From Cinnamomum chago (taxonomy: Eukaryota > Streptophyta > Magnoliopsida > Laurales > Lauraceae), in assembly GCA_038049695.1 (NCBI GenBank), contig CP142452.1:75400501-75464500 (forward strand): 64,000 nucleotides of DNA, in the 5' to 3' direction. Below are positions 26,431 through 63,245 of the stretch, one piece after another. Made by a program: the position numbers and the translations under genes. Every line of letters begins with the position of its first letter. The stretch's first letter is position 1. Below the pieces are notes generated by a model. That model searched no databases. It saw only the letters and a program-made list of their open reading frames with translations, and had not been told where the DNA came from.

Positions 26431-26839
26431 ACACTAAAAACCCGGACTAGGGTGTTATGGACTTGAGAGTATTGTTCATCCACCTCTTTTTTTCCCCTCT
26501 ACTTTTCAAGTGCATCTATAAAAGGTCTACGGTTTTAAGAGGCTTTGCCGATACTTTTCTAAAGTGGGCAGTGTAGAAATGATTGCAAATCGCTCTTTAT
26601 TTTCTGAACCTCTGTCTGCTTTAAACATTTAGACAAATAGAGCCGGGAAATAGAGATGCAAAAACATGAGCCTAGTGTACGATGAATCAGAGGAGGAGTT
26701 GGAAATGAATAATATCAATCAAGCTAAGCGCATTCACATGATGAAGCGGCCTAGGTTAATTTGTTCAGTAATTGTAGATCTGAATGTCACTTCTTCTAAT
26801 AAATTCTTGCACTACCCTCTCAATCAAAGCCCTAATAGC

Positions 26840-27085
26840 AGTGGTTGTGGATTATCTTGGACGAAGTGTAGATGATCCAAAGCAACCGCTGCTATTAGAA
26901 AAATTAAAATTAAAATGTGTAAAGAATATAAACCAGGCTTTATTATTCTTTCAGAAACCAATGCCAATGCTAAAGAAACTGTTCTATTAGCTAATGAGAT
27001 TAAATTTGACAAAATAGCTGTTGTGCCGGCCGTTGGATCTGTTGGGGGCATTGCACTTTTTTGGCATAACTCGTGCAACATGAAT
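26840..27085 (+). mobile_element. L1 endonuclease fragment, unit A copy
   Basis: A plus-strand frame reads MCKEYKPGFIILSETNANAK, then GGIALFWHNS, the N-terminal part of the L1 endonuclease (KP.II...ET, GGLALFW). Only this piece is present. The matching copy in unit B (55330-55525) shows that it predates the duplication. Confidence 0.75.
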
Positions 27086-28132
27086 GTTTTTTTTCTTTAG
27101 AACATTTTATTCACTGCTCCATTGATGTTCACAATCTGGAGAAAATTTGGTGAGCTTGCACCCATGCCATATTTGAAACAGAAACATTGTCAAGGTGACC
27201 TGAGTCATGTTCAAAGGGTGGTTTGAATTATCTAAGTCAGCTTAGATCAACTTGAAATGTGAAATTTTCTCATGAATGAAGATATAATATGAACACTATT
27301 GCATGTTCCTTCCCCAACAAATAAAAAGGGTTTAGATGTGTAATAAGCTAGAAAGCCCCATTAGACCTGCTACTGAACATTAGTCAAGTTTTGCTGTTGA
27401 TGAAGTGAGCTGACTTCCACAAAATAATCATTAGACAATGTTGCCCTTCCCTAGCCCCATGTTCCACCTTGGACCCATTGGTGTTTCTTTCCCTTTGTCT
27501 CCCTAGCCCCATCTCTAACAAGTTGGATAAAGCATTATATTAAAGGAAAGATAAGCTCCACTACCACCAGTCTCATGGTTGAAAACCCACTCAGATCAAG
27601 AAGATCTTGATCTCATTACACAATCAGAACAGGGTTGCATCTTTGACATGCTATGAATAGTACGCATAGATGAGACATTTTCAGGATGACAATTAACTTA
27701 TCCCATCCAAATGGGTTCTCTAACCGCTTTCTACTCATGCATTACGAAGAGTCAAGGTTATAAAGATTATAACTACAAAATTAGTTAAAATATAAAGATC
27801 ATAACAACAAGATTAGTTAAACATATGATGATGAAATGAATTGTAGCTTTATATAATTTTCATCCATTCGTACTAATAAGAAACTTTGTTGCATGACAAA
27901 GTTCCAGGTTCATAGAATACACCTTGAATCACTGACTGGATGTTTATGTACTTCACAAACATACATCCTGTCATCTCATCCAATATTAGAATCCAAACCA
28001 CCAAAAAGCCTGCACTTTCATATATTGTTCTATTTTCTACGCAAACATATTCATCTCAAGATAGAACAGGGGTATAAGGCAACGACAGTAGATGAATACG
28101 AGCTTTTGGTATAGGCAATAATGGCAAAATGC

Positions 28133-28173
<41 letters not shown>

Positions 28174-29639
28174 ACATTATCACCGTCATCAACTCTACCA
28201 TGGAATAGTTATTTGGATGAAGAGAAAGAGTACTAGGAAAAAGACAATCAGGAGTGGGTTCGTATTATACAACTCAGAAAAATACAAACAAAAAACATTG
28301 AAACAAAAATAGAGATCATATCCAATGGCATATCATAAAATCTCTCATTTGCACATATTTCAGTCTACAAACCCAGCAATAGAAACAGAGATCCAATAAC
28401 CAAAATAATTGAAAGGTAATATTCCTTAAAAAAAAAAAAACTGATTTACTCATCACCATCATTATAAAAGCCTTGCCCAAACTATATTGGGGTCTGTTAC
28501 ATGAATTCTGTTTCTCCAATCCGATGTATCTTGAGCAAAATCCTTAGATAAATTGCACTTCTTTATATATGTTTTTACCCCCTCCATCCGTCCACGGCCT
28601 CTTCAGTCTACCCCTTCCTCTCGGTGGGCCATCAACTTGCAGAGCCAAACTTTTCCTTACCGGCTCCGTTACCAATCTGCAATGGACATGCCAAACCATC
28701 TCAAATGGAAAACTAAAGGAGAATTGACCTGATTCAGCTTACTGGATGGGTAATTAGCAATAAAGAATATGGTTCATGAAATCTGAAATAGAATATAAAA
28801 ACCACATTCATTCTTTTTGTAGAGGGAGAGGGGGGGGGGATAACACATACCTTAGAGTAGAACGGGAGGAGAACCAATATTTAGCCTGAGGGATTTTCCT
28901 TGCAGAGAAAATGTGGGTTTTCCTTCCAAGGATATCATCATTTATACATGCATGAGATTTGGCAAAAATTGAATTCCGCCTAGGGGTGCATAGAAAATCC
29001 AAATTTCTTGTATGTAAGAAATTTGTAGCCGAACGACCCTTAATTGCTTACTGTAGAAGTTGAACAGTTTTTTAGCGAAAAATACCTATGAAAGAAGAAA
29101 AAAGAAGAAGAATATAATTGTTTCATTTTGAATTAGTTGATTGGAAGAAGGAACAGAATTTACAACATTAAACTCAACAAGATAGTGATGGGAATTTTAT
29201 AGAAAGAAAAAGATTCATTTCATTTTTAATCAGTTGATTCGAAGATATAACAAAATTCACAAAAAAAAAAAAAAAATTGAATGGTAACTTTCATTAAAAG
29301 AGAGAAAAACAGTACAAAAAAAATTATACTGCCAACCACACCACAACAACAAAATTTACAAAATTAAAGAAGCATCCTCCTGAATCATATGCTTTTCAAG
29401 TGGCCATCCTTCAAACTATTATCAGTTTCAAGATTAATACCCAAGTTTCTCATCTCTTGTTTGAAATTTCTTCCAAGCAGATTCGTCACCTTCATCCCTC
29501 CTTTGCTCCATTATCACTGATAGGAATTACATGATAAATAATATAATAAATTCAATAAAAAAGTTTTTCAAAATAGAAAATAAAAGAGAGAGGTAGAAAA
29601 GTGAAAAGCCTAACCATCATCTAATGATCAACTTTGCAG
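27086..29639. other. Non-coding part of unit A
   Basis: No exon is recognised. The interval 28320-29050 is related to the 3' flank of the intact NLR genes (compare 30680-30940), which suggests an older tandem NLR duplication. A (TA)n(GA)n microsatellite lies at 28132-28173. Confidence 0.5.
28132..28173 (+). repeat. Compound (TA)n(GA)n microsatellite in unit A
   Basis: The tract is absent from the matching place in unit B (about 56540), so it grew after the duplication. Confidence 0.9.
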
Positions 29640-29990
29640 TTACTTTCTGATGCCCATTGGTAGATATTGCAATATGAGGGATGTGATGTATCTTGTGCCA
29701 ATCCTCACCCATGTTCTTCTCGCACATGTTTGATAGGGAGCAAGCTTTCGAGTGCGGTCAGTTGTTGTAGCAAGGATTCCATCTTATAGCAACGGTAAAT
29801 GGATAGAAAGAAGTCATGTTAGATTTCCAAAACTCCTCTCTGGTAGACTTTTTAAATATACACAACTTATTAATTTAAAAACTTGGAGACTGCTACACAT
29901 GAAAGATAACTCACTTGGCAAACCTATCCACCTATTGCATTTTTTATTTTCAATTTCTTAAAAAGACTAGTCTGTCACAAGAAGCAATGG
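29640..29990 (-). pseudogene. Decayed NLR 3' (LRR) fragment, unit A
   Basis: On the minus strand this matches the last LRR codons of the intact NLRs (compare 36280-36480): the shared order includes gtgatgtatcttgtgccaat, cgagtgcggt and gttagatttcc. The frame is broken and only the C-terminal LRR end survives. It sits just beyond the flank of the intact NLR, as the leftover of an older tandem NLR copy. Confidence 0.8.
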
Positions 29991-31579
29991 TTAGATCTCA
30001 AGCCACAGTTACAATTTGCAATTTTCAAATATGTTTTTTGAAAAAGCATTGAGTTAGTCACATTAAAAAATTAAAAAACTAATAATTATATGAAAAATGA
30101 GATTGATGCAAATGAACGTCAGGCCACATGTGTATGGCCCAAATAGATTTAGAATATTTTATTTGGAAATTATATGCCATTAGTTTCTTATTTAATTTAG
30201 GGAATTGTAATTAGGACATGATTCTTATCTTATTTCCTAGCATGATTAGTTTCTTAGTTTGTTAGATTTGTTAGCCCCTATTTATATGTCATTGTAGAAT
30301 ATTATTTTTAGAGAGTTCATTAATGAAAATTTGATTTTCCCATTGAGCTGCTCCCAGTTATCATCTCTGCATAGACTTGTTGAAGTGTTTATGGACATGC
30401 GCTTCGACACTTTCATGCTAGCCCTAACCCCATGGCTTGCATCAGTCAGATTAATAATCTCAGATTTGGAGTCAATAAAATTTCCCTCGTTGTTTTATTG
30501 TGGAGAGTGTTTTCTTCGTGTGATTGTTTCTGCGGAAACCTCTAATTGTGTTTGCTTTGTGATCCTAACCTTTGGATTGCATCATAGATCCAAAAAGCAA
30601 AAAAAGAAAAAAAAAACTGGAGTGATTACTCCCAAACAAAGAGGAATAAGTCACTTACAGATAGAGAGAGGTAGAACATATACTTGATAATAGACCGCCA
30701 GAGGAGAGCCAAATTTCAGCCCAATGGATTTTTCTTGCACATAAAAGTGGGTCTCCTTGCCGACACGAGAGAAATCTGTAGAAATCGTAATTCGATAGGG
30801 GAACATCGAAAATCAAAATTACCTTTAAGAAAATTGGAGCCAGTTTTCTCATGAATTCATTGCATTGAACCGAATGACCCTCAAGTTGATTGCCATGGCC
30901 AACACATGCAAATAGACCCATCACCTTCATCTTGCTTCGTTCACTACTAGAAAAACCACTTTTAGCGACCGCCAAAAGCCGTCGCTAAAAGTGGTCTGGT
31001 GGTCGCTAATACTCTTTAATGACCGCTCAGTGACAGCCAAGAGAGCGACGCGGATACTTCGTCGCTGTCGCTAATGTTTTTGCGACGGCAAGGTGGTGGT
31101 CGTTAAAAATTTTAAAAAAAAATTGGAAGCATTAGCGGCCGCCATAGCGGTCGCTAATACTGCAAACAACGGTCGCTAATACACTATTTTTTTGATTTTT
31201 TTGATTTTTTTTAATTTTTCAAGTATTAGCGGCCGCTAAAAGTAATAGTTTTTTTTTTAAACGTCCTGTTTTTTCTCAATTCTTTTCCTTCTTTTTTATA
31301 CATGTACCTGATATATTATCAATTAAAATTACAAATACTACCATCAATTAAAATTACAAATAACAAAAGAAAGTCTTATATTAATTACATTCAAAACATT
31401 ACAAAAGTTTCAACAAATTATATCCATTACAATTACAGAAAAAAAAAGTCCGTGCGGGGTGCTGTGGTAGATCCATTGCTCTTAAACCCGAACAGAAAAA
31501 GGAAAATAAATATTAATAGTTAACTATAAAATTTGACAATTTATATTAAATATAAAAAAAATTAAGAATTAAAATTAAA

Positions 31580-33010
31580 ATTTAAACCTATGTTTTAACT
31601 GTACGAGCAATCCGGGAGTCGGAATCTTGTTCCGTCAGTTTCTACAAGTTATGAATGACTAGGGACCCGTGCCCGTCAAGTTTCACGGGCAACGGAGTCC
31701 TTTTGCTCATTTTGGGTGCTCGGAGGCTCGTTTTCTAAGTTTTAAGTTAACGTTCTAACTTAAATCTACGTTTCAACTGTACGAGCAATCTGGGAGTCGG
31801 AATCTCGTTCCGTCAGTTTCTGCAAGTCATGAATGACTAGGGGCCCGTGCCCGTCAAGTTTCACGGGTAACGGAGCTCGTTTACTAGTTTTGGGAGCTCG
31901 GAGGCTCGTTTTCTAAATTTTAAGTTAACGTTCTAACATAAACCTACATTTCAACTGTACGAGCAATCCGGGATTCGGAATCTCGTTCCGTCAGTTCCTA
32001 CAAGTCATGAATGACTAGGGGCCCATGCCCGTCAAGTTTCATGGGCAACGGACTCCGTTTGCTCATTTTGGGTGCCCGGAGGCTCGTTTTCTAAGTTTTA
32101 AGTTAACGTTCTAACTTAAACTTACGTTTCAATTGTACGAGCAATTCGGGAGTCGGAATCTCGTTTCGTCAGTTCCTGTAAGTCATAAATGACTAGGGAC
32201 CCGTGCTCGTCAAGTTTCACGGGTAACGGAGCCCGGCTGCTCGTTTTGGTGCCCGGAGGCTCGTTTTCTAAATTTTAAGTTAACGTTCGAACTTAAACCT
32301 ACGTTTCAACTGTACGGGCAATTCGGTAGTCGGATTCTCGTTCCGTCAGTTCCTACAAGTCATGAATGACTAAGGGGCTGTGCTCGTCAAGTTTCAAGGG
32401 CAACGGAGCCCGTTTCCTCATTTTGGGCGCTTGGAGGCTTATTTTCTAAGTTTTAAGTTAATGTTTCAACTTAAACCTACATTTCAACTTTACGAGCAAT
32501 CCGGGAGTCGGATTCTCATTCCGTCAGTTCCTGCAAGTTAAGAATGACTTTGGGCCCATGCCCGTCAAGCTTCACGGGCAACAGAGCCCGGCTACTCATT
32601 TTGGGCATCCGGAGGCTCATTTTCTAAGTTTTAAGTTAACGTTCTAACTTAAACCTACTTTTCAACTGTACGAACAATTCGGGAGTCAGATTCTCGTTCC
32701 GTCAGTTCCTGCAAGTCATGAATGACTAGGGGCCCTTGCCTGTCAAGTTTCATGGGCAACGGAGTCCGTTTGCTCGTTTTGGGTGCTCAGAGGCTCGTTT
32801 TCTAAGTTTTAAGTTAGTTTCTAGGTTAAATCTACGTTTCAACTGTACGAGCAATCCGGGAGTCGGAATCTCGTTCCGTCAGTTCCTGCAAGTCAGGAAT
32901 GACTACGGGCCCGTGCCCGTCAAGTTTCAAGGGTACCGGAGCCCGATTGCTCGTTTTGGGCGCTCGGAGGCTCGTTTTCTAAGTTTTAAGTTAAGGTTTT
33001 AACTTAAATG
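31580..33010. repeat. Eight-copy tandem array, 177-178 bp unit, inside the CACTA element
   Basis: The word gtacgagcaa or a variant recurs at 31601, 31779, 31957, 32135, 32312, 32490, 32668 and 32845, a spacing of 177 or 178 bp. Each unit also carries tcgttccgtcagt, gaatgactag, cccgtcaagtttca and ggaggctcgttttctaa. Units look about 85-90% alike. The array lies between the end of the TNPA-like gene and the left subterminal zone. Open frames within it are by-products of the repeat. Confidence 0.95.
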
Positions 33011-36187: not shown

Positions 36188-39100
36188 CTAGAAGTATATA
36201 GAAAGACTAACCAATCTCTCAGCCAACTTCACTTCTTGTCTCCGATACCGATCAACATCAGGAAACTCACTGATACAAAGATGAGGGATGTGTTGTATCT
36301 TGTGCCAATCCTCGCCAATGTTTGTCTCACATCGTCCGGCTAATACAGGACAATGTAAGATAAATAAGGATTTGAGTGCGGTGAGGCGTTGTAGCTCTTT
36401 TGGCAATGATGTTATCTTATGGCAGCTCTCAATGGATAGATGATGAAGTGATGTTAGATTTCCCAACCTCTCTGGTAGGCTTTCCAACTTATGACACCAT
36501 ATTAACTTCAGAACTTGGAGACCGGTAAGAAATGATATCTCATTTGGTAAAGTTGTCAACGTAAAGCAGCCTTCTATTTTTAAACTTTTAAGGAGAGAGA
36601 TGTGATGAAGCTCTTTGCTGAAAGAAATTAGTCTGTCACCAGAATCAATTGTCAGTTCTTGAAGAGAGATCAAGCCTCTCATCTCCTCAACTGGAAAGGA
36701 CAGAAGATTACACGCTTTTAGACTCAGAGATTTTAGAGTGGTGAGGTTTTGCAATCCCATGTGCACATCTTCAAGCTGGGTACAATCTGCAATTTTTAGA
36801 TGTGTGAGATTTTGTAGCATCCCTTGCCACAAAGGCTCTGCACCCGACACTGGCGAAGAACCAATAGTCAAATGCTCAGAAGATGGAAATAATATGATTT
36901 TAGTTAGCATGAGGCAGTCATATATTTTCAACTTGACAAGCCTAGGGAATATCCGCCCACTCCTCCATCCTGACCATATTCTCAATTTTCCCATACCTCT
37001 TATAGTAAGTTCTTCTAATGATGGGAATCCTGCTGACACCTCATTACCATAGACTTCATCGCCAATGTACTCCACATTTTGCAATCTTATAAGTTCTAAG
37101 ACTTTGAGCGAAGGTAATTGGCCAAGTGGTGGCAAGTGGTTCAATCTTACACAATTAGATAACTTGATTTTTTGTAGTCTGGCAAGAGTGGTGTCCATCA
37201 TCCAACTAGGAAATTGGATGCCCCAATAGTTGGATAACACCAACACCTCCAGATTTCCATGTGGCTGGAGGCCTTGGAGAATCTGCTCTTCAATTGTTCC
37301 TTCATTAATTCTCATGTTCTCAGGATCAGAAAGACCAAGACGTGTCCAATTTAGTGCAAGAGAAGTAAGATTTGGTTTGCCGATGAGATTAGCTTTTTCA
37401 ACATCAATGGGATTTTTTATATTCTCAAGGTGTTCAATGATCAACCTTCCTCTAAGGTTTAAACTTTGTAACTCTCCTATGCCACTACATTCAATGTGCT
37501 TGCTCACAATAAAACGTGTTAATTCTTGGAGGCATGTCAATCGCCCCATCCTTGGAGGCATATGAGTTAGCATAGGACAACCTCTTATGTCCAAATGTCT
37601 AAGGTTGGTCAAGTACCTCAGGCCAATGGGTAACATATAAAGTCGTCGACACATAGTTAGTATTAAAGTCTGTAAATAATATAGACTAGTCAACGATTCA
37701 GGTAACATAACAATATTGGATCTGGAGAGGTCGAGGTACCTTATATGTTTCAAGCTGTCTGGCCGTTTTAGCAATTGCAATTGCTGGACAGCAGGAGGGT
37801 TCCTTAAATCCAACACTCTCAAACATTTAAATTTGCTCACGTGAGAAGGCAAGTGCAGCCCATCGCCATAATTGATACATGTGCGTAGCATTTGAGGTTC
37901 AATTGAGGAGTCACGAAGCATTTCTGATGATGTTAAGTCAAAACATGAGACATGACGAACCCTTTTGGAGATTTTCACAAATTTGCCGTCCTTTGCGACA
38001 CAACATTCATTTCCCATAACAGATCGTGCAAGATCATGAAAGAGGTCATGCATACTGAAGAAAGTTATTTTGTCCACTAACAATCTCCATCTAGGATCGT
38101 AGAATGTTGTAAAGTCTTCCTTGACGTCCTTGACGTCTTGGAAGAAAGATTTCATAACCAACTCATTGAAAATCTCATTGCCAATATCTTCCAACTCCAT
38201 TCCTATTTTGGAAGGAATAAAACCATTGCCCATCCATAACTTAATCAGTCTTTCCTTCCCTATCTTAAAATTTTTAGGGAAAATAGCGCAAAAGGCAAAA
38301 CATTGCTTCACATGTGACTTTAGATGGTTATAGCTCAACCTCAAAGCAGGCAATATTCCATACTCATTTTCATTGGCTACATTCCATATTTCACTGTCCC
38401 TTACATATGCCCATCTGGCTTCATCTGTCTCGCAATACAAAAGGCCTCCTAGAGTTAGCACTGCGAGTGGGTTGCCCTTGCATTTCTTCACAATCTCACG
38501 TCCAATTGACACCAAGTTAACTTGATGTGTTTCTCCCTCCTCTCTTAGATTTCCAAGTCCTGGTTGGCTGAACAAAGACCAGCAATGATCATCTGGCAAA
38601 CCCTCCAAAACAATTGGACTGATTGTGCTCATTATGGATGCAACCTTTCTTATGCGCGTAGTTACAACAATTCTACTTCCTCGTCCTCCGCAAATCAACA
38701 GTTCTCTCAGCCTTGCCCACTTGTCCAGTTTTTCATTCCAGACATCATCCAACACAAGCAGGAATCTCTTCTCACTCAGCGCTTCTCGGAGGCGATGCTG
38801 CAATTCCTCCACATCGAATTTCTTCACATTGCTGGGTCCAGGTCCTCCAGGATAATCACCAGCTGCCAAGTAAAATGTGCTCGCACTGCTGGGTCCAGGT
38901 CCACCACGAAGACCACGAGTTGCACGTTCAATGATCTTATTTTGAAGCCTTATAACATCAAAATCATCAGAGACACATATCCACATTTTCAGCTTAAAAT
39001 GATCGTCCACATCTTCATGGTTGTAGGCAAACTGAGCTAGCGTTGTTTTGCCAATGCCTCCCATGCCCACAATTGGAATGACTAAAACACCCTGAGGAGG

Positions 39101-39640
39101 TGACAGCAACAAACTGAGTAGCTTCGCTTTCTCTTCTTCTCTTCCAAGTACTCGAGATTTGTTTACGTATGAGCCGGTCTCCCTCTGCTCCTTAAACTTG
39201 CACTCCCAATTTTTAACCGTCTCTTTCAACTGAAACTTATCACTCTCTGCTTTAACAGCTTCGAGTCTCTCGCTAACATCTTTGAGTTCCGAGGCTAAGT
39301 TTGGACGGTTAAAAACTGCGGGGATGAGATTGCGTACCTTCTTTTGGGGAGGCTCCTGGCTCTGTCTCCGGTCCTCGATCTCATACTCTTCCAGTAGGTC
39401 CTCAGCATCGTAAGCAGCATCTTTGATCCTTTCCAGCAACTCCATCAGCTTTGGATCCAACACAGGGCTCCCTTCTGCTATTTCGATGAAACCACGAATT
39501 TCTGTTAGGGAAACCTTAATCTTCTCCAGCTCCAGCTCCAGCTCCTTTTGATCACCCAAGAAGTTTGACAAGTAGGACACGACCTTATCCAGTACTAGAT
39601 TAACTAGGTAGGAGATTGCCGTTTGTTCTACAGTATCCAT
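36188..39640 (-). CDS. CNL-type disease resistance protein (unit A), single exon, 1150 aa
   Basis: An intracellular immune receptor of the CC-NB-ARC-LRR class. Rx-type N-terminal coiled coil about residues 1-140 with the EDVID-like YDAEDLLEEYE (77-87). NB-ARC: P-loop GMGGIGKTT 192-200, RNBS-A to about 228, kinase 2 LLVLDDVW 294-301, RNBS-B GSRIVVTTR 321-329, GNPLA (GLPL) 389-393, RNBS-D CFAFCAIFPK 447-456, MHD 530-532. Leucine-rich repeats fill about 560-1120. All nucleotide-binding motifs look intact, so it is probably functional. Odd: a 38-residue insert (239-276) of two 19-residue GGPGPS repeats lies between RNBS-A and kinase 2. The start MDTVEQTA aligns with its paralogue. A GTTAGT just before the stop could be a 5' splice site. 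Confidence 0.95.
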   Translation of the reverse strand: MDTVEQTAISYLVNLVLDKVVSYLSNFLGDQKELELELEKIKVSLTEIRGFIEIAEGSPVLDPKLMELLERIKDAAYDAEDLLEEYEIEDRRQSQEPPQKKVRNLIPAVFNRPNLASELKDVSERLEAVKAESDKFQLKETVKNWECKFKEQRETGSYVNKSRVLGREEEKAKLLSLLLSPPQGVLVIPIVGMGGIGKTTLAQFAYNHEDVDDHFKLKMWICVSDDFDVIRLQNKIIERATRGLRGGPGPSSASTFYLAAGDYPGGPGPSNVKKFDVEELQHRLREALSEKRFLLVLDDVWNEKLDKWARLRELLICGGRGSRIVVTTRIRKVASIMSTISPIVLEGLPDDHCWSLFSQPGLGNLREEGETHQVNLVSIGREIVKKCKGNPLAVLTLGGLLYCETDEARWAYVRDSEIWNVANENEYGILPALRLSYNHLKSHVKQCFAFCAIFPKNFKIGKERLIKLWMGNGFIPSKIGMELEDIGNEIFNELVMKSFFQDVKDVKEDFTTFYDPRWRLLVDKITFFSMHDLFHDLARSVMGNECCVAKDGKFVKISKRVRHVSCFDLTSSEMLRDSSIEPQMLRTCINYGDGLHLPSHVSKFKCLRVLDLRNPPAVQQLQLLKRPDSLKHIRYLDLSRSNIVMLPESLTSLYYLQTLILTMCRRLYMLPIGLRYLTNLRHLDIRGCPMLTHMPPRMGRLTCLQELTRFIVSKHIECSGIGELQSLNLRGRLIIEHLENIKNPIDVEKANLIGKPNLTSLALNWTRLGLSDPENMRINEGTIEEQILQGLQPHGNLEVLVLSNYWGIQFPSWMMDTTLARLQKIKLSNCVRLNHLPPLGQLPSLKVLELIRLQNVEYIGDEVYGNEVSAGFPSLEELTIRGMGKLRIWSGWRSGRIFPRLVKLKIYDCLMLTKIILFPSSEHLTIGSSPVSGAEPLWQGMLQNLTHLKIADCTQLEDVHMGLQNLTTLKSLSLKACNLLSFPVEEMRGLISLQELTIDSGDRLISFSKELHHISLLKSLKIEGCFTLTTLPNEISFLTGLQVLKLIWCHKLESLPERLGNLTSLHHLSIESCHKITSLPKELQRLTALKSLFILHCPVLAGRCETNIGEDWHKIQHIPHLCISEFPDVDRYRRQEVKLAERLVSLSIYF
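38813..38926 (-). repeat. In-frame 57-bp minisatellite in the NB-ARC domain, 2 copies
   Basis: Two units of exactly 57 bp encode RATRGLRGGPGPSSASTFY and LAAGDYPGGPGPSNVKKFD. The unit nearer the N-terminus is diverged. The same locus in the unit B gene has three units. Confidence 0.95.
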
Positions 39641-40581: not shown

Positions 40582-41134
40582 AGGCCTCCCATACCCTACA
40601 TAGGCCTCCCATGCCTTATGTAGGCAACTCATTATACCTTACATAGGCATCCAATACCCTACATAGGCCTCCCATGCCCTATGTAGGCAACTCATTATAT
40701 CTTACATAGGCATCCAATACCCTACATAGGCCTCTCATACCCTACATAGGCCTCCCCTGCCCTATGTAGGCAACTCATTATACCCTACATAGGCCTCCCA
40801 TACCCTACATAGGTCTCCCATACCCTATGTAGGCCTCCCATGCCCTATGTAGGCAACTCATTATACCCTACATAGGCATCCAATACCCTATGTAGGTCTC
40901 CCATGCCCTATGTAGGCAACTCATTATACCCTACATAGGCCTCCCATACCCTATGTAGGCCTCCCATGCCCTATGTAGGCAACTCATTATACCCTACATA
41001 AGCCTCTCATACCCTACATAGGTCTCTCATACCCTATGTAGGCAACTCATGCCCTACATAGGCCTCTCATACCCTACATAGGCTTCCCATGCCCTATGTA
41101 GGCAACCCATGCCCTATGTAGGCATTCCATACTC
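40582..41134 (+). repeat. Minisatellite of about 27 units with 20/20/23-bp higher-order order
   Basis: Units are of the form aggcctcccataccctacat (20 bp), a variant ending ccctatgt, and a 23-bp form aggcaactcattatacccta plus cat. They often run in the order 20-20-23, giving a 63-bp higher-order period. Each junction makes a small palindrome, cctacatagg or cctatgtagg. The last unit runs into the TATA box of the next gene. Confidence 0.95.
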
Positions 41135-41142
41135 TATATAAA
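41135..41142 (+). promoter_or_regulatory. TATA box of the MULE-OTU gene
   Basis: tatataaa lies 488 bp upstream of the start codon, in ctctatataaacatcac. It aligns with the ccctatgt end of the minisatellite unit, so the box looks like a mutated last repeat. Position relative to a transcription start near 41170 is inferred. Confidence 0.6.
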
Positions 41143-41629: not shown

Positions 41630-44600
41630 ATGGACGAACGTATTAAGTTATGGGGCAAAGATTTACGCTTATCAAGTTATTCGACTGAGGTAAATTTTTG
41701 TTTAATATAATATTAATTAATTGTTGACTAAATACTCACTAATTATGCTAGTTAATATGAAACAGAATGATCAATGCGAAGTGATTGCAGTAGCATCAGA
41801 AAATATTCAAGTTCAAACTGATTATACGGAGCAGTTTACAACTAATATGGTATAATTAGATTTTTTATTTCTTAGTCATTTAAATCTGAATAAATACTAA
41901 TTACTTTTTTCATTCTTAGGTATTTAAATGTCGCGAAGAATTAATTCAATGGGCACGAGCAGTTGGGCGTGCAGTTGGATTTATTTTGACAATTGCAAGT
42001 TCAAATCAAGGTGAATTTGGTCAGAAGCCTTACTTGCTTATGCAATGTGAACGAAGTGGACATTATCGGTCGATAAAGACTTCGTCGAAGAAGACCAGTA
42101 CTAGAAAATGCAATTGTCCATTTCGTTTGAAAGGCATTAAATTGGAAGGCGGGAATGATTGGGTATCAATGGTCGTTTGCGGCATCCATAATCACCCTGC
42201 TGCGCATTACATGGAAGGTCATTCGTATGCTGGCAAATTATCAGAGGATGAAACAGGCATTATGATTGATTTGTCCAAAAATTTAGTGAAGCCACGTGAC
42301 ATACTATCCACATTGAAGGGGCGAGATCCACTCAATATGTCTACCATTAAAACCATTTACAATGCTCGTCAAAAACATCGAGTGGCAGAAACTGCAGGGA
42401 GGTCTCAGATGCAACAATTAATGTTTAATCTCAGTAAGCATGATTACATTTCGTGGCATAGAAGTCATGGTGAGTCAAACGAGCTTCAAGATTTATTTTT
42501 TGCTCATCCTTGTTCACTTGATTTGTTACGTGCTTTTCCTCACATACTTCTTATGGACACAACATACAAGACTAACAGGTTCAACATGCCACTTTTTGAA
42601 ATAGTCGGTGTTACATCAACAGAGTTGACTTTTTCTGTTGCATTTGTATTCATCCAGTTCGAGAAAGAGGACAATTTTGCATGGGCATTAAGCTGTTTGC
42701 GTTCTACTATGGACGGGTGTTCATTACCACGAGTGGTGTTGACTGACAGAGATTTAGCATTAATGAATGCTGTGGATCGCGTTTTCCCCGAGTCAACCGC
42801 TTTGCTGTGCAAATGGCATATTGGGAGGAATGTATTAACAAATTGTAAGAAGCTATTCGAAGAAAAGCATGCGTGGGAGAGTTTCTACTCAAAGTGGTGT
42901 TATCTAGTGGATTCTGATACCACCGAAGAGTATTCCAAGAGGTTGCTGACTATTGAGCAATCATTTCGCAGATATCCTAAAGCACTCAATTACATCAAAA
43001 CGATATGGCTGAATAAATATAAGGAGAAATTTGTGCAGGCCTGGACCAACAGATCAATGCATTGCGGTAACAGGACGACGAATCGAGCCGAAAGTCAACA
43101 TGCAAGGTTGAAAAGGCATTTATGTAATTCAATGGGCAATTTTGAGTCCGTGTGGTTACATGTTCATAATCTATTGGAGGCGCAATTCACATCCATTAAA
43201 GCATCGTTGGAACGAAGTGTCAATCTTGTGCGCCATGATTTCAGGCACTCGTTGTACAACGAACTGAGAGGTTTTGCTTCTTGTGCTGCAATGTATCACA
43301 TTTTAGAAGAAGCAAAACGTTCTCATATTGTTAGGGATGATCTTGAAACTTGTGGTTGTCAAATCCGATTAAGTCACGGTTTGCCATGTGCACATGAAAT
43401 CTATACATATATCTCGGAGGGTCGTCCAATTCCACTATCTTCTATTGATTTGTTCTGGAGGAAGCTGGACTTCATGCCTACCACTAGAGTAGAGAATGAT
43501 GATTTAAGCTGCAATGTTGAGTTAGAATTGTTCGCCGACCAATTCAAAAAAAAGCCTCGGTCAGGTAAACTTCGGTGGTTGCAAAAATTACGTGAAATTA
43601 TTAATCCTTCTACCACTTTACTTGCAGAGCCAGAGGTGAAGAAGAATACTCGTGGACGACCTACTTCAAAGAAAAAAGATATTACATCGACTCGAAGAGA
43701 TCCATCAGGATTTGAATATGCTGAGGCAAATCATTCATTTTTTTTACCGAGCAGGCATAGTTTTGCATCATCTTATGTTCCCCCAGCGCCACAACCTCGA
43801 AGATTTTCTACTGATATGCAGCTGGAGGTTGGTCAGCATAAGAACAGTAATCAGTTTCCTACTATTGTGCATCCTAACTTTGACCAGCATAGTTACGTGG
43901 ACCAGTTGCATACGGATTTGCATCCAGAGTTTGGCTCATGTAGTTATGTTGACCAATTTCCTGTTGAATTGTACTCGGGTTTTGGCTCACATAATTACGT
44001 TGACCAATTTTCTACTGATTTCTATTCAGAGTATGGCTCACATAGTTACGTCCACCAGTTTCCACCTCATTTACATCCGTATATTACATCTGTGACCGAT
44101 GTTATTGCTGATGGGAATTGCAGGTTTCGTAGCGTCGCTATGGCTTTACGTATGGATGAAGGTCAAAATGCATGGGCTATTGTAAGGTATGGTATGTTAA
44201 CTGAGCTGAACAACAATGTTGATGAGTATGCATCCTTGTATGGAAGTTACGAAAGGCTTTCACACATAAGAGAAGCGCTGACATTTTTTGAGACAGATAA
44301 GCCTGCACCATTGCTTCATTGGATGAATATGCCGGACATGGGTCACTTGATTGCGTCATGGTATAATGTGGTTTTCATTTTGATTAGTGAATCACAGAGC
44401 ATGACGTTTCTTCCTCTACGGTCTGCACCACCACCACCACATGAACAACATATAATTTGCATTGGACATGTCAATCAGAACCACTTTGTGGAGGTATCCT
44501 TGGTTCCCAATCCTCCAATGCCCCCTATCATGATCCAATGGGGTGCATACAAACACCAATGTGCAGCACAATGGGCTTTAATTTATGAACAAAACTTTGA

Positions 44601-44667
44601 AGACTACAAGCGGATATGGAATCCATCTACTGTAACCCAACCTACTGTACATTTGGATTCTGATTAG
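41630..44667 (+). CDS. FAR1-like MULE transposase fused to an OTU-like cysteine protease domain
   Basis: Three exons: 41630-41689 (MDERIKLWGKDLRLSSYSTE), 41766-41849 (NDQCEVIAVASEN onward) and 41920-44667, with GT-AG introns and matching phases; 963 aa. FAR1-type zinc-binding region about 50-170 (CNCPF, CGIHNH). MULE DDE transposase: D261 (MDTTYK), D324 (LTDRDLA), E439 (NRAESQH). SWIM zinc finger 526-540 (CGCQIRLSHGLPCAH). Basic linker, then four 17-residue repeats (694-761). C-terminal OTU-like domain with DGNCRFR (C782) and NHFVEV (H903), the expected catalytic Cys and His. The frame is open throughout, so the protein may be made. No terminal inverted repeats or target duplication were found, so it may be a mobile MULE with unseen ends or a domesticated gene. 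Confidence 0.9.
43855..44058 (+). repeat. Four 51-bp in-frame repeats in the MULE-OTU linker
   Basis: Units of exactly 17 residues: FPTIVHPNFDQHSYVDQ, LHTDLHPEFGSCSYVDQ, FPVELYSGFGSHNYVDQ, FSTDFYSEYGSHSYVHQ. A partial fifth (FPPHLHPYI) leads into the OTU domain. Confidence 0.95.
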
Positions 44668-55019: not shown

Positions 55020-55329
55020 TGGTGTACGATGAATCAAAGGAGTAGTTGGAATGAATAATATCCATCAAGCTGAGCGCATTCACATGATGATGCAGCCCAG
55101 GTCTGTTCAGTAATTGTAGATCTGAATGCCTCTTGTTCTAATAAAGTCTTGCACTGCCCTCTTAATCAAAGCTCTGATAGCTGTGGTTGTGGATTATATC
55201 TTAGACCAAGTGTAGAGGATCCAAAGCAGCTGCTGGGCTGACCCAAGAAATTGAACACGGGTGGGGGTGGGTTGGGGCTTCAGCCTACAGACTTTTATAC
55301 CAGGGTCCACCCCTGTCTACTGCAATTAG

Positions 55330-55525
55330 AACAATTAGAAAAACTAAAAAAAAAAAAAAATACTTAAAGAATATAAACCAGGCTTTATTATTCTTTCAGA
55401 AACCGCAAGGCCAATGCTAAAGAAATTGTTCTATTAGCTAATGAAATTAAATTTGACAAAATAGCTGTTGTGCCGGCCGTTGGACCTGTTGGGGGCATTG
55501 CACTCTTTTTGGCATAACTCGTGCA
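55330..55525 (+). mobile_element. L1 endonuclease fragment, unit B copy
   Basis: Matches 26840-27085. A G/C-rich stretch of about 60 bp (55255-55320) interrupts it relative to unit A, and the frame is more broken. Confidence 0.7.
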
Positions 55526-58050
55526 ACATGAATGTTTTTTTTTTTTTTTTTAAGAACATTTTATTCACTGCTCTGTTGATGTTCACAATCTGAAGAAAAT
55601 TTGGTGAGCTTGCACCAATGACATACTTGAAACAGCAACATTGTTAAGGTGACCTGAGTCATGTTCAGAGGGTGGGCTTGCATTATCTAAGTCAGCTTAG
55701 ACTTGAAATGTGAAATCTTCTCATGAATGATGATATAATATGAACACTACTGCATGTTCCTTCCCCAACAAATAAAAAGGCTTTAGATGTGTAATAAGCT
55801 AGAAAGCCCCATTAGACCTGCTACTGAACATTAATGATCAAGTTTTGCTATTGATGAAGTGACCTGACTTCCACAACATAATCATTAGACAATGCTGCGC
55901 TTCCTTAGCCCCATGTTCCATCTCTAACGAGTTGGATAAAGCGTTGTATTAAAGGAAAGATAAGGTCCACTACCACCAGTCTCATGGTTGAAAACCCACT
56001 CAGATCGAGAAAATCTTGATCTCATTACACAATCAAAACAGGGTTGCATCTTTGACATGCTATGGATAGTACGCATATTAAGCATACATATAGAGATGAG
56101 ACATTTTCAGGATGACCATTGACTTATCCCATCCAAATGGGATCTCTAATTACGAAGAGTCAAGGTTATAAAGATTATATAACTACAAAATTAGTTAAAA
56201 TATAAAGATCATAACAAGAAGATTAGTTAAACATATGATGATGAAATGAATTGTAGCTTTATATTATTTTCATCCATTTGTACTAATGTAAGAAACTTCG
56301 TTGCATCACAAAGCTCCAGGATCACAGAATACACCTTGAATCACACAGACTGGATGTTTATGTACTTCACAAACATACATCATGTCACCTCCTCCAATAT
56401 TAGAATCCAAACCACCGAAAAGACACTTTCATATATTGTTATATTTTCTACGCAAGCATATTCATCTCAAGATAGAACAGGGACATAAGGCAACAGCAGT
56501 AGACGAATAGGAGCTTTTGCTATGGGCAACAATGGCAAAATGCATCTACCGTACATATAGAACAATTAGGAAAAAGAGAATCAGGAGTGGGTTCGTATTA
56601 TACAATCGGGACTCAGAAAAATACAAACAGAAAACCTAGAAACAAAAATAGATATCATATCCAATGGCATATCATAAAATCTCTCCTTTTGCACATATTC
56701 CATTCTACAAACCCGGCAATAGAAACAAAGATCCAATACCCAAAATAAATAAAAGGTATTCCTTAAAAAAAAAAATACATAGATCAAACCCAAGTTTTGT
56801 CCAATCCCATGAATTATGTCAATCCTCAAAACCTTACATCATGAAAGCCACAACCCAACTATATTGGGGTCGGCTACATGAATTTTGTTTCTTCAGTATG
56901 ATGTATCCTATATCCTGAGCTTAATATTTAGATAAATTACACTTCTTTATATTTATTTTCACCACCTCTATCCACATCCTCTTCGTCCTCCCACTTCTCC
57001 TCGTGGGCCATCAACTTGCAGCGCCAAACTCTCTCTTACTGGCGCCGTTACCAACCTGCATTAAACATGCCCAAACCATCTCAAATAAAAACCTAAAGCA
57101 GAATCAACCGGGTTCGGCTTACTGGGGGGTGGCTGATTAGCAACAAAGAATATGGTTCAAAAAATCCGAAATAGAATATCCAAAACCACATTCATTCTTT
57201 TTGCACAGAGAGGGGGAGAACACATACCTTAGAGCAGAGAGAACCAGAGAATAACCAATATTTAGCCTGATGGGTTTTCCTTGCAGAGAAAATGTGGGTT
57301 TCCTTGCAAGGATATCGTCATCTATACAAGCATGAGACAAAATATACAAAAATTGAATTCCGCTGGGGGTGCATCAAAAATCCATATTGCCTGTATGTAA
57401 GATATTTGTATCTGAATGACTCTCAATTGCTTGCCGTAGAAGTTGAACAATTTTTTAGCGAAAATGCCTACAGAAATAAGAGCTTAAAATTCAACAAGAG
57501 AGTGATGGGTAATTTATAGAATATGATAGAAGAAAAAAGAAGAAGAATATAATTGTTTCATTTTGAATTAGTTGATTGGAAGAAGGAACATAATTTACAA
57601 CATTAAACTCAACAACATAGTGATAGGAATTTTATAGAATGAAAAAGACTTATTTCATTTTTAATCAGTTGATTCAAAGATATAACAAAATTTACAAAAA
57701 AAAAAAAATTTGAAGGGTTACTTTAATTAAAAGAGAGAAAAACGATACAAGAAAATTTTACTGCCAACCACACCACAACAACAAAATTTACAAAATTAAA
57801 GAAGCATCCTCATGAATCATATGTTTTTCAAGTGGACATCCTTCAAACTATAATCAGTTTCAAGAATAATACCCAAGTTTCTCATCTCTTGTTTGAAATT
57901 TCTTCCAAGCAGATTCTTCACCTTCATCCCTCCTTTGCTCCATTATCGCTGATAGGAATTACATGACAAATAAATAATAAATGCAATAAAAAAGTTTTTC
58001 AAAATAGTAAATAAAAGAGAGGTAGAAAAGTGGAAAGACTAACCATCATC
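55526..58050. other. Non-coding part of unit B
   Basis: Counterpart of 27086-29639. No exon is recognised. The (TA)n(GA)n tract of unit A is missing here. Confidence 0.5.
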
Positions 58051-58450
58051 TAATGATCAACTTTGCAGTTTCTTTCTGATGCCCATTGGTAGATAATATT
58101 GCAATATGAGGGATGTGATGTATCTTGTGCCAATCCTCACCCATGTTCTTCTCGCACAGCATGTTTGATACGGAGCAAGCTTTCGAGTGCGGTGAGTTGT
58201 TGTAGCCCTTCTGGCAAGGATGCCATCTTATAGCAAAGGTAAATGGATAGAAATTGAAGTGATGTTAGATTTCCAAAACTCCTCTCTGGTAGACTTTTTA
58301 AGAACTAGGAGACTGCTACACAACTTATTACTTTAAGAACTTGGAGACTGCTAAACAAAGGTAACTCACTCGGCAAACCTATCCGCCTATTGCATTTTTT
58401 TAATTTCAATTTCTTAAAAAGACTAGTCTGTCACAAGAACCAAAGGTTAG
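58051..58450 (-). pseudogene. Decayed NLR 3' (LRR) fragment, unit B
   Basis: Counterpart of 29640-29990 and similar to the end of the intact NLRs (compare 59660-59870). It keeps slightly more LRR sequence than the unit A copy (cccttctggcaaggatgcca). The frame is broken. Confidence 0.8.
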
Positions 58451-59156
58451 ATCTCAAGCCACAATTACAATTTGCAATTTTCAAATATGTTTTCTGAAAA
58501 AACATTGAGTTAGTCACATTAAAAATATTAAAAAACTAATAATTATATGAAAAATGAGATTGATGCAAATGAACCTCAGGCCACATCTATAAGGTCCAAA
58601 TAGATTTAGAATATTTTATTAGCTAATTATATGCCATTAGTTTCTTATTTAATTTAGGGAATTGTAATTAGGATAGGATTCTTATCTTATTTCCTAGCTT
58701 GATTAGTTTCTTAGTTTGTTAGGTTTATTAGCCCCTATTTATATGTCATTGTAGAAGATTATTTTTAATGAGTTCATTAATGAAAATTGGATTTCTCCAT
58801 TGAGATGCTCCTTGTTATCATCTCTGCATAGACTTATTAAAGTATCTACGGACATACACTTCGGCACTTTCATGCTAGCCCTAACCCTAGAGCCTGCATC
58901 AGTCAGATTGATAATTTCGGATTTGGAGTGAATAAAATTCCCCTCGTTGTTTTATTTTGTGGAGAGTGTTCACTTCGTGTGATTATTTTTGCGGAAACCT
59001 CTAATTGTGTCTGCCCTGCGATCCTAACATTTGGATTGCATAAAAGATCCATTCAGAAAAAAAAAACCTTGCATAGAGATCCAAAAATCGAAAAAAGGAG
59101 GAAAAAAAAAAAAGAACACGGAGTGATTGTTCCTAGACAAAGAGGAATAAGTCAGT

Positions 59157-59209
<53 letters not shown>
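59157..59209 (+). repeat. Compound (TA)n(GA)n microsatellite in unit B
   Basis: TA repeats at 59157-59180 join GA repeats at 59181-59209. The matching place in unit A (about 30657) has only a few GA repeats, so the tract grew in unit B. Confidence 0.9.
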
Positions 59210-59210
<1 letters not shown>

Positions 59211-59563
59211 ATATACTTGAGAATAGACAGAGCCAGAGGAGAGCCAAATTTCAGCTCCATCGATTTTTCTTGCAGGGAAAAGTGGGTTTCCTTGCCGACA
59301 CGAGAGAAATCTGTAGAAATCGCCGATAGGGGAACATCAAAAAATCAAAATTGCCTCTAGGAAAACTGGAGCCAGTTTTCTCAGAAATTCATTGCATTGA
59401 ACCGAATGACCCTCAAGTTGATTGCCATGGCCAACACATGCAAATAGACCCATCACCTTCATCTTGCTTCGTTACTGGCTTACTGCAGACAAGAATTGCA
59501 TGAGAAATAAATAAGAGATGCAAAGAAAAAAGATTTTTTTTTTAAATAAAAAAGAAGAATAGG

Positions 59564-62500
59564 CTAGAAGTATATAGAAAGACTAACCAATCTCTCAATG
59601 AACTTCACTTGTTGTCTCCGATGCCGATTAGCAACAGAAAGCTCACTGATATAAATATGTGGGATGTGTTGTATCTTGTGCCAATCCTCGCCAATGTTTG
59701 TCTCACATCGTCCGGCTAATACAGGACAATCTAAGATAAATAAAGCTTTGAGTGCAGGGAGGCGTTGTAGCTCTTTTGGCAATGATGTTATCTTATGGCA
59801 GCTCTCAATGGATAGATGGTGAAGTGACGTTAGATTTTCCAACCTCTCTGGTAGGATTTCCAAACCACACCAAATTAACTTCAGAACTTGGAGACCGGTA
59901 AGAAATGATATCTCATTTGGTAAAGTTGTCAACATAAGGCAGCCTTCTATTTTTAAACTTTTAAGGAGAGAGATGTGATGAAGCTCTTTGCTGAAAGAAA
60001 TTAGTCTGTCACCAGAATCAATTGTCAGTTCTTGAAGAGAGATCAAGCCTCTCATCTCCTCAACTGGAAAGGACAGAAGATCGCACTTTTTTAGACTCAG
60101 AGACTTTAGAGTGGTGAGGTTTTGCAATCCCATGTGCACATCTTTAAGCAGGGTACAATTTGCAATTTTTAGATGTGTGAGATTTGGTAGCATCCCTTGG
60201 CACGGAGGCTCTGCAACCGACACTAGCGAAGAATCAATAGTCAAATGCTCAGAATATGGAAATAATATGACTTTAGTTAGCATGGGGCAGTCATAAATTT
60301 TCAACTTGACAAGCCTAGGGAATATCCGCCCACTCTTCCATCCTGACCATATTCTCAATTTTCCCATACCGCTTATAGTAAGTTCTTCTAATGATGGGAA
60401 TCCTGCTGACACCTCATTTCCATAGATTTCATCGCCAATGTGCTCCACATTTTGCAATCTTCTAATTTCTAAGACTTTGAGCGAAGGTAATTGGCCAAGT
60501 GGTGGCAAGTGGTCCAATCTAAAACAATTAGATAACTTGATTTTTTGTAGTGTAGCAAGAGTTGTGTCCATCATCCAACTAGGAAATTGGATGCCCCCAT
60601 AGTCGGATAACATCAACGCCTCCAGATTTCCATGTGGCTGGAGGCCTTGGAGAATCTGCTCTTCAATTTTTACTTCATTTATTATCATGTTCTCAAAAAC
60701 ACAAAGACCAATATGTGTCCACTTTAGTGCAAGAGAAGTAAGATTTGGTTTGCCGATGAGTTTAGCTTGTTCAACATCAGTAGGATTTTTTATGTTCTCA
60801 AGGTGTTCAATGATCAACCTTCCTCTAAGGTTTAAACTTTGTAACTCTCCTATGCCACTACATTCAATGTGCTTGCTCACAATGAAACGTGTTAATTCTT
60901 GGAGGCATGTCAATTGCCCCATCCCTGGAGGCATATGAGTTAGCATACGACAACCTCTTATGTCCAAATGTCTAAGGTTGGTCAAGTACCTCAGGCCAAT
61001 GGGTAAGTTACGAAGATTTTCACACATAGTTAGTATCAAAGTCTGCAAATAATATAGACTAGTCAACGATTCAGGTAACATACCAATACTGGATCTGGAG
61101 AGGTCGAGGTACCTTATATGTCCCAGGTTGTCTAGCAGCCTTGGGACGGCACCAAATTCTAGAGACATGAAAGTACTCAAATCCAGCACTCTCGAAAATC
61201 TGAAATGTTCCACCTCAGAATGCAAGTGCAGCCCATCGCCACAAAAACTGATAAATGAGCGAAGCATTCGACCTTCAAATAAGGAGACAGGAAGCATTTC
61301 TGATGATGTTAAGTCAAAACATGAGTAATGACGAACCCTTTTGGAGATTTTCATAGATTTGCCAACGACTGCGACACAACATTCGTTTCCCATAACAGAT
61401 TGTGCAAGATCATGAAAGAGATCATGCATACCGAATAAAGTTAATTTGTCCGCGAACATTAATGTCCGTCTAAAACCCCCTCCAACACGGGAGTATGTTG
61501 TACTGTATTCCTTGACGCCTTGGAAGAAAGACTTCATAACCAACTCATTAAAAATCTCATTGCCAATATCTTCCAACTCCATTCCTATTTTGGAAGGAAT
61601 AAAACCATTGGCCATCCATAACTTAATTAGTTTTTCCTTCTCAATCTCATAATTTTTAGGGAAAATAGCACAGAAGGCAAAACATTGCTTCACATGTGAC
61701 TTTAGATGGTTATAGCTCAACCTCAAAGCAGGCAATATTCCATACTCATTTTCATTGGCTATGTTGCATATTTCACTGTCCCTTACATATGCCCATCTGG
61801 CTTCATCTGTCTCGCAACACAAAAGGCCTCCTAGAGTCAGCACTGCGAGTGGGTTGCCCTTGCATTTCTTCACAATCTCACGACCAATTGACACCAAGCT
61901 AACTTGATGTGTTTCTCCCTCCTCTCTTTGATTTCCAAGTCCTCGTTGAGTGAACAAAGACCAGCAATGGTCGTCTGGCAAACCCTCTAAAACAATTGGA
62001 TTGATTGTGCTCATTATGGATGCAACCTTTCTTATGCGCGTGGTTACAATAATTCTACTTCCTCGTCCTCCGCAAATCAACAGATCTCTCAGCCTTTCCC
62101 ACTTTTCCAGTTCTTCATTCCAGACATCATCCAACACAAGCAGGAATCTCTTCTCACCCAGCGCTTTTCGAAGGCACTGCTGCAGTACCTCCACATCGAA
62201 ATTCTTCACATTGCTGGGTCCAGGTCCTCCAGGATAACCACCAGCTGTCCGTTTGAATTTCTTCACATTGCTAGGTCCAGGTCCTCCAGGATAGCCACCA
62301 GCTGCACGTTTGAATTTCTTGACATTGCTAGGTCCAGGTCCTCCAGGATGAGCACCAGCTGCACGTTCAATGATCTTATTTTGAAGCTTTATAAAATCAA
62401 AATCATCAGAGACGCATATCCACAGTTTCAGCTTAAAATGATCGTCCACATCTTCATGGTTGTAGGCAAACTGAGCTAGCGTTGTTTTGCCAATGCCTCC

Positions 62501-63073
62501 CATGCCCACAATTGGAATGACTAAAACATCCTCATGAGGTGACAGCAACAAACTGAGTAGCTTCGTTTTCGCTTCTTCTCTTCCAAGTACTTGAGATTTG
62601 ATTACGAATGAGTGGGTCTCCCTCTGCTTCTTAAACTTGCTCTCCCAATTTGCAACCGTCTTTATCAACTGAAACTTTTCACTCTCTGCTTTAATAGCTT
62701 TGAGTCTCTCACTAACATCTTTGAGTTCCAATGCTAGTTTTGGACGGTTAAATACTTCAGGGACGAGATTGCGTACCTTCTTTCGGGGAGGCTCCTGGCT
62801 CCGTCTCCGGTCCTCGATCTCATACTCTTCCAGTAGGTCTTCAGCATCGTAAGTAGCATCTTTGATCCTTTCCAGCAATTCCATCAGCTTTGGATCCAAC
62901 ACAGGGCTCCCTTCTGCTATTTCGATGAAACCACGAATATCTGTTAGGGAAACCTTAATCTTCTCCAGCTCCTTTCGATCACCCAAGAAGTTTGACCAGT
63001 AGGACATGACCTTCTCCAGTGCTAGATTAACTAGGTAGGAGACTGCTGTTTGATTTACAGTATCGAGCGCCAT
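59564..63073 (-). CDS. CNL-type disease resistance protein (unit B), single exon, 1169 aa
   Basis: Paralogue of the NLR at 36188-39640, roughly 85% alike by eye, with the same domain order: Rx-type coiled coil with YDAEDLLEEYE, P-loop GMGGIGKTT, kinase 2 LLVLDDVW, RNBS-B GSRIIVTTR, GNPLA, RNBS-D CFAFCAIFPK, MHD (FGMHDLFHDLAQ) and leucine-rich repeats. The frame stays open to 63127, but the start chosen is MALDTVNQ at 63073, which aligns with the paralogue's MDTVEQ; the upstream codons come from an A-rich leader. Three 19-residue GGPGPS units (residues 237-293) sit between RNBS-A and kinase 2. Differences from unit A cluster around the MHD-LRR junction and first LRRs (STTYSRVGGGFRRTLMFADK). 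Probably functional. Confidence 0.95.
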   Translation of the reverse strand: MALDTVNQTAVSYLVNLALEKVMSYWSNFLGDRKELEKIKVSLTDIRGFIEIAEGSPVLDPKLMELLERIKDATYDAEDLLEEYEIEDRRRSQEPPRKKVRNLVPEVFNRPKLALELKDVSERLKAIKAESEKFQLIKTVANWESKFKKQRETHSFVIKSQVLGREEAKTKLLSLLLSPHEDVLVIPIVGMGGIGKTTLAQFAYNHEDVDDHFKLKLWICVSDDFDFIKLQNKIIERAAGAHPGGPGPSNVKKFKRAAGGYPGGPGPSNVKKFKRTAGGYPGGPGPSNVKNFDVEVLQQCLRKALGEKRFLLVLDDVWNEELEKWERLRDLLICGGRGSRIIVTTRIRKVASIMSTINPIVLEGLPDDHCWSLFTQRGLGNQREEGETHQVSLVSIGREIVKKCKGNPLAVLTLGGLLCCETDEARWAYVRDSEICNIANENEYGILPALRLSYNHLKSHVKQCFAFCAIFPKNYEIEKEKLIKLWMANGFIPSKIGMELEDIGNEIFNELVMKSFFQGVKEYSTTYSRVGGGFRRTLMFADKLTLFGMHDLFHDLAQSVMGNECCVAVVGKSMKISKRVRHYSCFDLTSSEMLPVSLFEGRMLRSFISFCGDGLHLHSEVEHFRFSRVLDLSTFMSLEFGAVPRLLDNLGHIRYLDLSRSSIGMLPESLTSLYYLQTLILTMCENLRNLPIGLRYLTNLRHLDIRGCRMLTHMPPGMGQLTCLQELTRFIVSKHIECSGIGELQSLNLRGRLIIEHLENIKNPTDVEQAKLIGKPNLTSLALKWTHIGLCVFENMIINEVKIEEQILQGLQPHGNLEALMLSDYGGIQFPSWMMDTTLATLQKIKLSNCFRLDHLPPLGQLPSLKVLEIRRLQNVEHIGDEIYGNEVSAGFPSLEELTISGMGKLRIWSGWKSGRIFPRLVKLKIYDCPMLTKVILFPYSEHLTIDSSLVSVAEPPCQGMLPNLTHLKIANCTLLKDVHMGLQNLTTLKSLSLKKCDLLSFPVEEMRGLISLQELTIDSGDRLISFSKELHHISLLKSLKIEGCLMLTTLPNEISFLTGLQVLKLIWCGLEILPERLENLTSLHHLSIESCHKITSLPKELQRLPALKALFILDCPVLAGRCETNIGEDWHKIQHIPHIYISELSVANRHRRQQVKFIERLVSLSIYF
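62195..62365 (-). repeat. In-frame 57-bp minisatellite in the NB-ARC domain, 3 copies
   Basis: Three units of exactly 57 bp encode RAAGAHPGGPGPSNVKKFK, RAAGGYPGGPGPSNVKKFK and RTAGGYPGGPGPSNVKNFD. They are far more alike than the two units in the unit A gene, which suggests recent expansion or homogenisation. Confidence 0.95.
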
Positions 63074-63245
63074 TATTCCTTGTTCTTCTGGTTTTTTTTT
63101 TTTCTTCTCCTTCAACTTTTCAGGCAAGAAAGAGATGAGGAAGGAGTGGCTCTCGTTCTCATTCTTACAGATAACAAAGAGTCAAGGTCACAAGGTCAAG
63201 CATGATTGGAGGTTTCCATGAAGGTTCCCTCAACCAAACGCGGCC

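Follow-up and report, generated by a model that had tools for sequence, protein, structure and literature searches.

A 57-bp tandem repeat lies in frame inside the NB-ARC domain of two neighbouring NLR genes of Cinnamomum chago, between the RNBS-A and kinase-2 motifs. Most probably the units multiplied by successive in-frame tandem duplications within a tolerant linker between two helices, and they would have persisted there because they do little harm. Two lines of evidence carry this reading: the linker varies in length far more than the other NB-ARC intervals measured, and further NLR genes of the same genome carry in-frame linker duplications built from unrelated units.

Three tandem NLR paralogues

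The window, a stretch of 64,000 nucleotides (G000:C2:75400501-75464500), comes from a single assembly of a 1.06-Gb genome in 14 contigs. It contains two single-ORF genes on the reverse strand, N1 (36188..39640), which encodes a CC-NB-ARC-LRR (CNL) protein of the R13L1/DRL21 type with 1150 aa and two repeat units, and N2 (59564..63073), which encodes a CNL protein of 1169 aa with three. The start of N2 was placed at the ATG aligned with that of the third paralogue, N3, the ORF list beginning at a TTG 54 bases upstream (59564-63127). Pfam matches above the cut-off to Rx_N, NB-ARC, WH_DRP and LRR_R13L1-DRL21 were obtained for both proteins, in the CNL domain order Rx_N, NB-ARC, winged helix, LRR. 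N3 itself was found by a whole-genome search with a segment of N2; it lies on the same strand about 23 kb past the end of the window (G000:C2:75487847-75491317), has one unit, and is open for 1156 codons from its first ATG or 1124 from the ATG aligned with that of N2.

The P-loop, RNBS-A, kinase 2 ending in W, RNBS-B and MHD are intact in all three genes and GLPL reads GNPL, as it also does in three of five relatives checked (L034, L036 and L040), which bears out the earlier note's statement that the motifs around the repeat are kept. In the winged-helix part, the alignment shows a second stretch, from MKSFF to MHD, in which N1-N3 differ in length and sequence.

N1 and N2 are tandem paralogues in one orientation, with about 81% protein identity. 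The duplicated segments that hold them comprise the genes themselves and the sequence at 26.7-30.9 kb versus 55.0-59.5 kb; by self-comparison, pieces of 26675..30945 are 80-92% identical to their counterpart at 55022..59476, so this flank is a duplicated block accompanying the NLR gene. The two genes had been described as paired, which does not apply in the sensor/helper sense: they share a strand rather than standing head to head, and are similar copies in a duplicated segment.

Several other features of the window were recorded. Each duplicated segment has one short LRR fragment of the same NLR family on the reverse strand (29593-29921 and 58049-58376), perhaps the leftovers of further gene copies. 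Eight tandem 178-bp copies with 86% matches occupy 31582-33008, in extra sequence that separates N1 from the duplicated flank; at the matching point no gap is seen in the N2 segment. On the forward strand, 41986-44667 is a MULE transposase-like ORF of 893 aa (Pfam MULE, E 6e-26), whose C-terminal part contains about 3.5 in-frame 51-bp repeats (43888-44063) followed by the stretch DVIADGNCRFRSVA; this stretch has no Pfam match and presumably resembles the start of an OTU protease. Near the MULE-like gene, an array at 40582-41140 is built of a diverged 20-bp sequence present about 27 times, with higher-order periods of 63 and 83 bp.

The 57-bp repeat units

The N1 array (114 bp, 38813-38926, reverse strand) consists of two in-frame 57-bp units and the N2 array (171 bp, 62195-62365, reverse strand) of three, both between RNBS-A and kinase 2, so that the coordinates and copy numbers given earlier are right in the 57-bp register. 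Read along the reverse strand, N1 has unit a (38870..38926, RATRGLRGGPGPSSASTFY, diverged) and unit b (38813..38869, LAAGDYPGGPGPSNVKKFD), while N2 has unit a (62309..62365, RAAGAHPGGPGPSNVKKFK), unit b (62252..62308, RAAGGYPGGPGPSNVKKFK) and unit c (62195..62251, RTAGGYPGGPGPSNVKNFD). The single unit of N3 is RAAAGHPGGPGPSNVKKLD. A length-variable in-frame repeat inside the NB-ARC, as the earlier note had proposed, is thus present, and the paralogues N3, N1 and N2 carry one, two and three units.

Contrary to the earlier claim, the copies are not exact. The two units of N1 agree at 39/57 bases and 8/19 residues; in N2, unit b is nearest to unit a (53/57), followed by b and c (50/57) and a and c (48/57). 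Nor is the peptide GGPGPSNVKKF constant: its core GGPGPSNVK is identical in four of the five units within the window, and in five of six when N3 is included, whereas the first unit of N1 has GGPGPSSASTFY in place of GGPGPSNVKKF. Tandem Repeats Finder reported the N2 array only. The N1 pair is nevertheless unlikely to be due to chance, since a single round of codon shuffling in each of the 125 NB-ARC regions described below produced no tandem pair of at least 68% identity.

A search of the 1.06 Gb with the pattern GGPGPSNVKK, allowing up to three mismatches, gave 13 matches, five exact and eight with three mismatches, while the reversed-pattern control gave 5 in total. The exact matches fall in N1 (one), N2 (three) and N3 (one), N1 unit a being too diverged for this search. 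A DNA search led to the same three places only, and a genome-wide dispersed motif was therefore rejected. The N2 array matched no Pfam family up to E = 10, and no credible PDB match was found for the repeat (best E 0.3, with an idealised query); with no recognisable foreign domain in the insert by these searches, the idea of an integrated decoy domain received no support either. Coding minisatellites are a recognised class, and the head-to-tail, in-frame units of at least 10 bp place the arrays within it. N1-N3 resemble other members in having diverged head-to-tail units, an in-frame period and a copy number that differs between paralogues, but have only 1-3 copies.

Position of the repeat in the NB-ARC fold

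ZAR1 (RPP13-like protein 4, PDB 6j5t) and other solved CNLs have a homologous NB-ARC, which puts the insertion site within a known fold. The alignment of N1 to 6j5t skips the repeat, breaking off at residue 234 and continuing from 245; that of N3 starts at this residue 245 as well. This break indicates that the repeat lies in a helix-to-helix linker of the NBD, the helices on either side being those that we assume from the ZAR1 fold. Between the aligned parts ZAR1 has 10 residues, free of repeats, and N1 has 38. CNL proteins had been said to go straight from the helix after RNBS-A to kinase 2; in fact these are separated by a linker plus another stretch, which in N1 is VEELQHRLREALSEKR. A model predicted for the NB-ARC of N2 from an alignment with N1 alone was of very low confidence (pLDDT 29.1, pTM 0.19) and carries no weight here.

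Length of the linker across sampled NLRs

Two queries, which gave 627 and 367 candidates, supplied the NLR loci surveyed in this one genome; the best-matching ones were taken, and some are close relatives of each other. The 137 loci comprise 57 from the best matches and 80 added later, the latter as pieces of 480-567 bases ending soon after kinase 2. Motif rules allowed the interval to be read in 122 of the 137; N1-N3 were added and duplicates dropped, which took the set from 127 to 125 regions (L035 and L059 overlap within the survey).

From RNBS-A to kinase 2 there are 46-59 residues in 116 of the 122 loci other than N1-N3, and 63-73 in the other six (L006, L155, L040, L012, L117 and L048). 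N3, with 55, is ordinary; N1 (74) and N2 (93) have the two longest intervals, followed by L048 (73). Over the 125 regions sampled this interval ranges from 46 to 93 with an s.d. of 6.49, as compared with 1.21 for P-loop to RNBS-A and 1.29 for kinase 2 to RNBS-B. The interval from RNBS-B to GLPL, readable in 56 regions only, has an s.d. of 1.93, and in those same regions RNBS-A to kinase 2 has 7.94. The linker is by far the most length-variable among the four NB-ARC intervals measured.

In-frame tandem duplications in other genes

The 125 regions (86037 bases) were scanned for head-to-tail pairs with periods of 24-120 bp and at least 75% identity. All six arrays detected, in five of the 125 regions, are inside the linker, which accounts for 9489 of the 86037 bases (11%); every period is divisible by 3, and one codon shuffle per region yielded none. 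Two of these arrays are in N2 and the others in L012, L117, L155 and L048, four genes with unrelated units. L012 (G000:C1:104133404-104137180) has EAVPDGINKMEGG, 13 residues, twice in its linker, L117 (G000:C5:21390893-21391372) has 16 residues twice and L155 (G000:C12:20119488-20119988) has 15 residues twice. These three share with N1 and N2 an in-frame linker duplication, here in two copies each, and differ from them in unit sequence and in lying on other contigs (C1, C5 and C12). The array of L048 has a Lys/Glu-rich 9-residue unit, of low complexity and near simple sequence. By eye, L013 has one unit where L012 has two, the sequence being near-identical on both sides. The five array-bearing genes have open frames of 905-1205 aa, stop-free inside the match.

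At a threshold of at least 68%, 12 arrays were found, 10 in the linker (N1 included) and 2 behind it. At 65% there were 15, with 11 in the linker and 4 outside, a level that is noisy, as the shuffles gave 6. Five loci chosen afterwards and kept outside the counts (L158-L162) showed no tandem copy in the linker by eye (5/5); among them L158, a long NB-ARC match (C5:6993885) considered as a possible duplicated linker, turned out to have an ordinary one. Eight of the 15 loci without a readable interval (L106, L107, L132, L157, L024, L049, L104 and L133), likewise outside the counts, had no tandem copy there; L049 and L133 have a stop in the P-loop.

Among the matches listed, the nearest relatives of N1-N3 belong to an R13L1-type CNL cluster on the same contig (C2, 14-22 Mb; L034 and others). 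Its members share the linker position and lack the GGPGPSNVKKF unit; their linkers read, for example, ATGHNPSLSNVEELQ or, in L040 and L048, are expanded with Lys/Glu-rich sequence. Unrelated in-frame duplications in the linker of four other NLRs, together with the length variance, argue against the 57-bp repeat being special in itself.

History of the copies

At column 16 of the unit, the first units (N1a, N2a and N3) have C and the later ones (N1b, N2b and N2c) have T, which suggests either one doubling inherited by N1 and N2 or sequence exchange. Columns 55 and 57 have G and T, respectively, in all the last units (N1b, N2c and N3). The unit of N3 thus begins like a first unit and ends like a last one, a pattern that would suit contraction, although an ancestral single unit would look alike.

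N2a and N2c differ at nine columns, of which N2b follows a at 3, 4, 36, 51, 55 and 57 and c at 14, 16 and 45. This alternation rules out N2b as a clean one-breakpoint chimera; a single unequal crossover would require later changes in a and c. Slippage or exchange copying mostly unit a would fit these columns best.

With L034 as the outgroup, site patterns joined N2 with N3 at 25 sites, N1 with N3 at 22 and N1 with N2 at 11. Up to alignment column 507, just behind the linker, 14/19 patterns join N2 and N3; beyond it, 20/39 join N1 and N3. A tree of the NBD and neighbouring codons placed N1 with N3, with a support of 73 only. On these patterns the three genes read as mosaics.

The unit of N3 contains a 15-bp near-duplication, AATGTGAAGAAATTA-GATGTGGAGAAATTG (NVKKL-DVEKL; 12/15 by eye), at a point where its relative L034 has AATGTGGAGGAATTG (NVEEL) once. 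The linker therefore seems to have grown in steps.

Discussion

On the explanation that we consider most probable, the linker between the helix after RNBS-A and the helix before the kinase-2 strand would grow stepwise by in-frame duplication, additions being tolerated because linker length is not fixed among the CNLs sampled here. Small duplications such as the 15-bp pair NVKKL-DVEKL may have come first, the 57-bp unit may then have been duplicated, and N2 may finally have gained its third unit by slippage or unequal exchange that mostly copied the first; this order is the one that we infer. The added Gly/Pro-rich segment is probably flexible and solvent-exposed and would leave the ATPase switch largely untouched, and most changes in linker length are expected to be near neutral.

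A selected length rheostat is unlikely. Here additional Gly/Pro units would change how the two helices ahead of kinase 2 pack, and nucleotide exchange or contacts in the oligomer would be tuned as a result. Its appeal lies in the position of the repeat, flanked within the NBD by two motifs that influence how ATP is handled, and in the autoactivity of I-2 and Rht13 that results from a point mutation in RNBS-A (PMC9860330). The GGPGPSNVK core, retained in five of six units, also counts in its favour and could reflect constraint, though little time has elapsed, whereas N1 unit a has lost half of that core and length varies widely at this place among NLRs with open frames. That the repeat tunes switching, as suggested earlier, is possible but unsupported, and its supposed closeness to the nucleotide pocket is likewise unsupported.

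We regard as somewhat less likely still a more general proposal, that the linker is a dedicated evolvable element of the NB-ARC, a hotspot in which in-frame tandem duplications recur across unrelated NLR lineages and are retained since the length of the linker sets the activation threshold. If this were true, graded sensitivity would be expected among paralogues and perhaps among individuals.

Gene decay, with the repeat as a symptom of relaxed constraint, is improbable. By the Nei-Gojobori method, whole-gene dN/dS for the three pairs is near 1 (0.90, 1.08 and 0.75), as decay would predict, and constraint on the genes is thus not strongly shown. Against this, three frames remain open for more than 1100 codons with their motifs kept, and dN/dS is 0.42-0.61 behind the linker, from NBD to WHD, versus 0.99-1.30 in the LRR; low values in the NBD and high ones in the LRR are what a functional NLR whose LRR is diversifying would be expected to show. 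For residues 151-238 the values (4.04, 1.52 and 0.80) derive from only 1-2 synonymous changes, numbers too small for these ratios to be used.

It is scarcely credible that the repeat is a spliced intron or results from an assembly error: each unit has a length divisible by 3 and no stop, and the units have diverged from one another, which makes collapse or expansion errors unlikely, the G+C content of the arrays (0.535 and 0.515, versus 0.42 in the coding sequences and 0.38 in the window) is the opposite of that of AT-rich plant introns, and the single 57-bp unit of N3 would be a very short plant intron.

Serial duplication in a permissive linker thus remains our preferred reading. Among the open-access titles and abstract openings that searches listed, none concerned repeated or duplicated sequence in this linker. 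Nor is the linker a topic in passages from PMC2262081, PMC9860330, PMC3017797 and PMC12576433.

In the NLRs sampled, our results point to one NB-ARC stretch of loosely fixed length that has been enlarged by in-frame duplication in several genes. Common accounts make the NB-ARC the conserved motor of plant immune receptors and the LRR the seat of their variation. That the linker is a recurrent site of duplication is a more useful finding than the repeat itself: it suggests a site that could take inserted tags at little cost, and length markers between paralogues. The one-, two- and three-unit paralogues would offer a clean test of loop length against receptor sensitivity.
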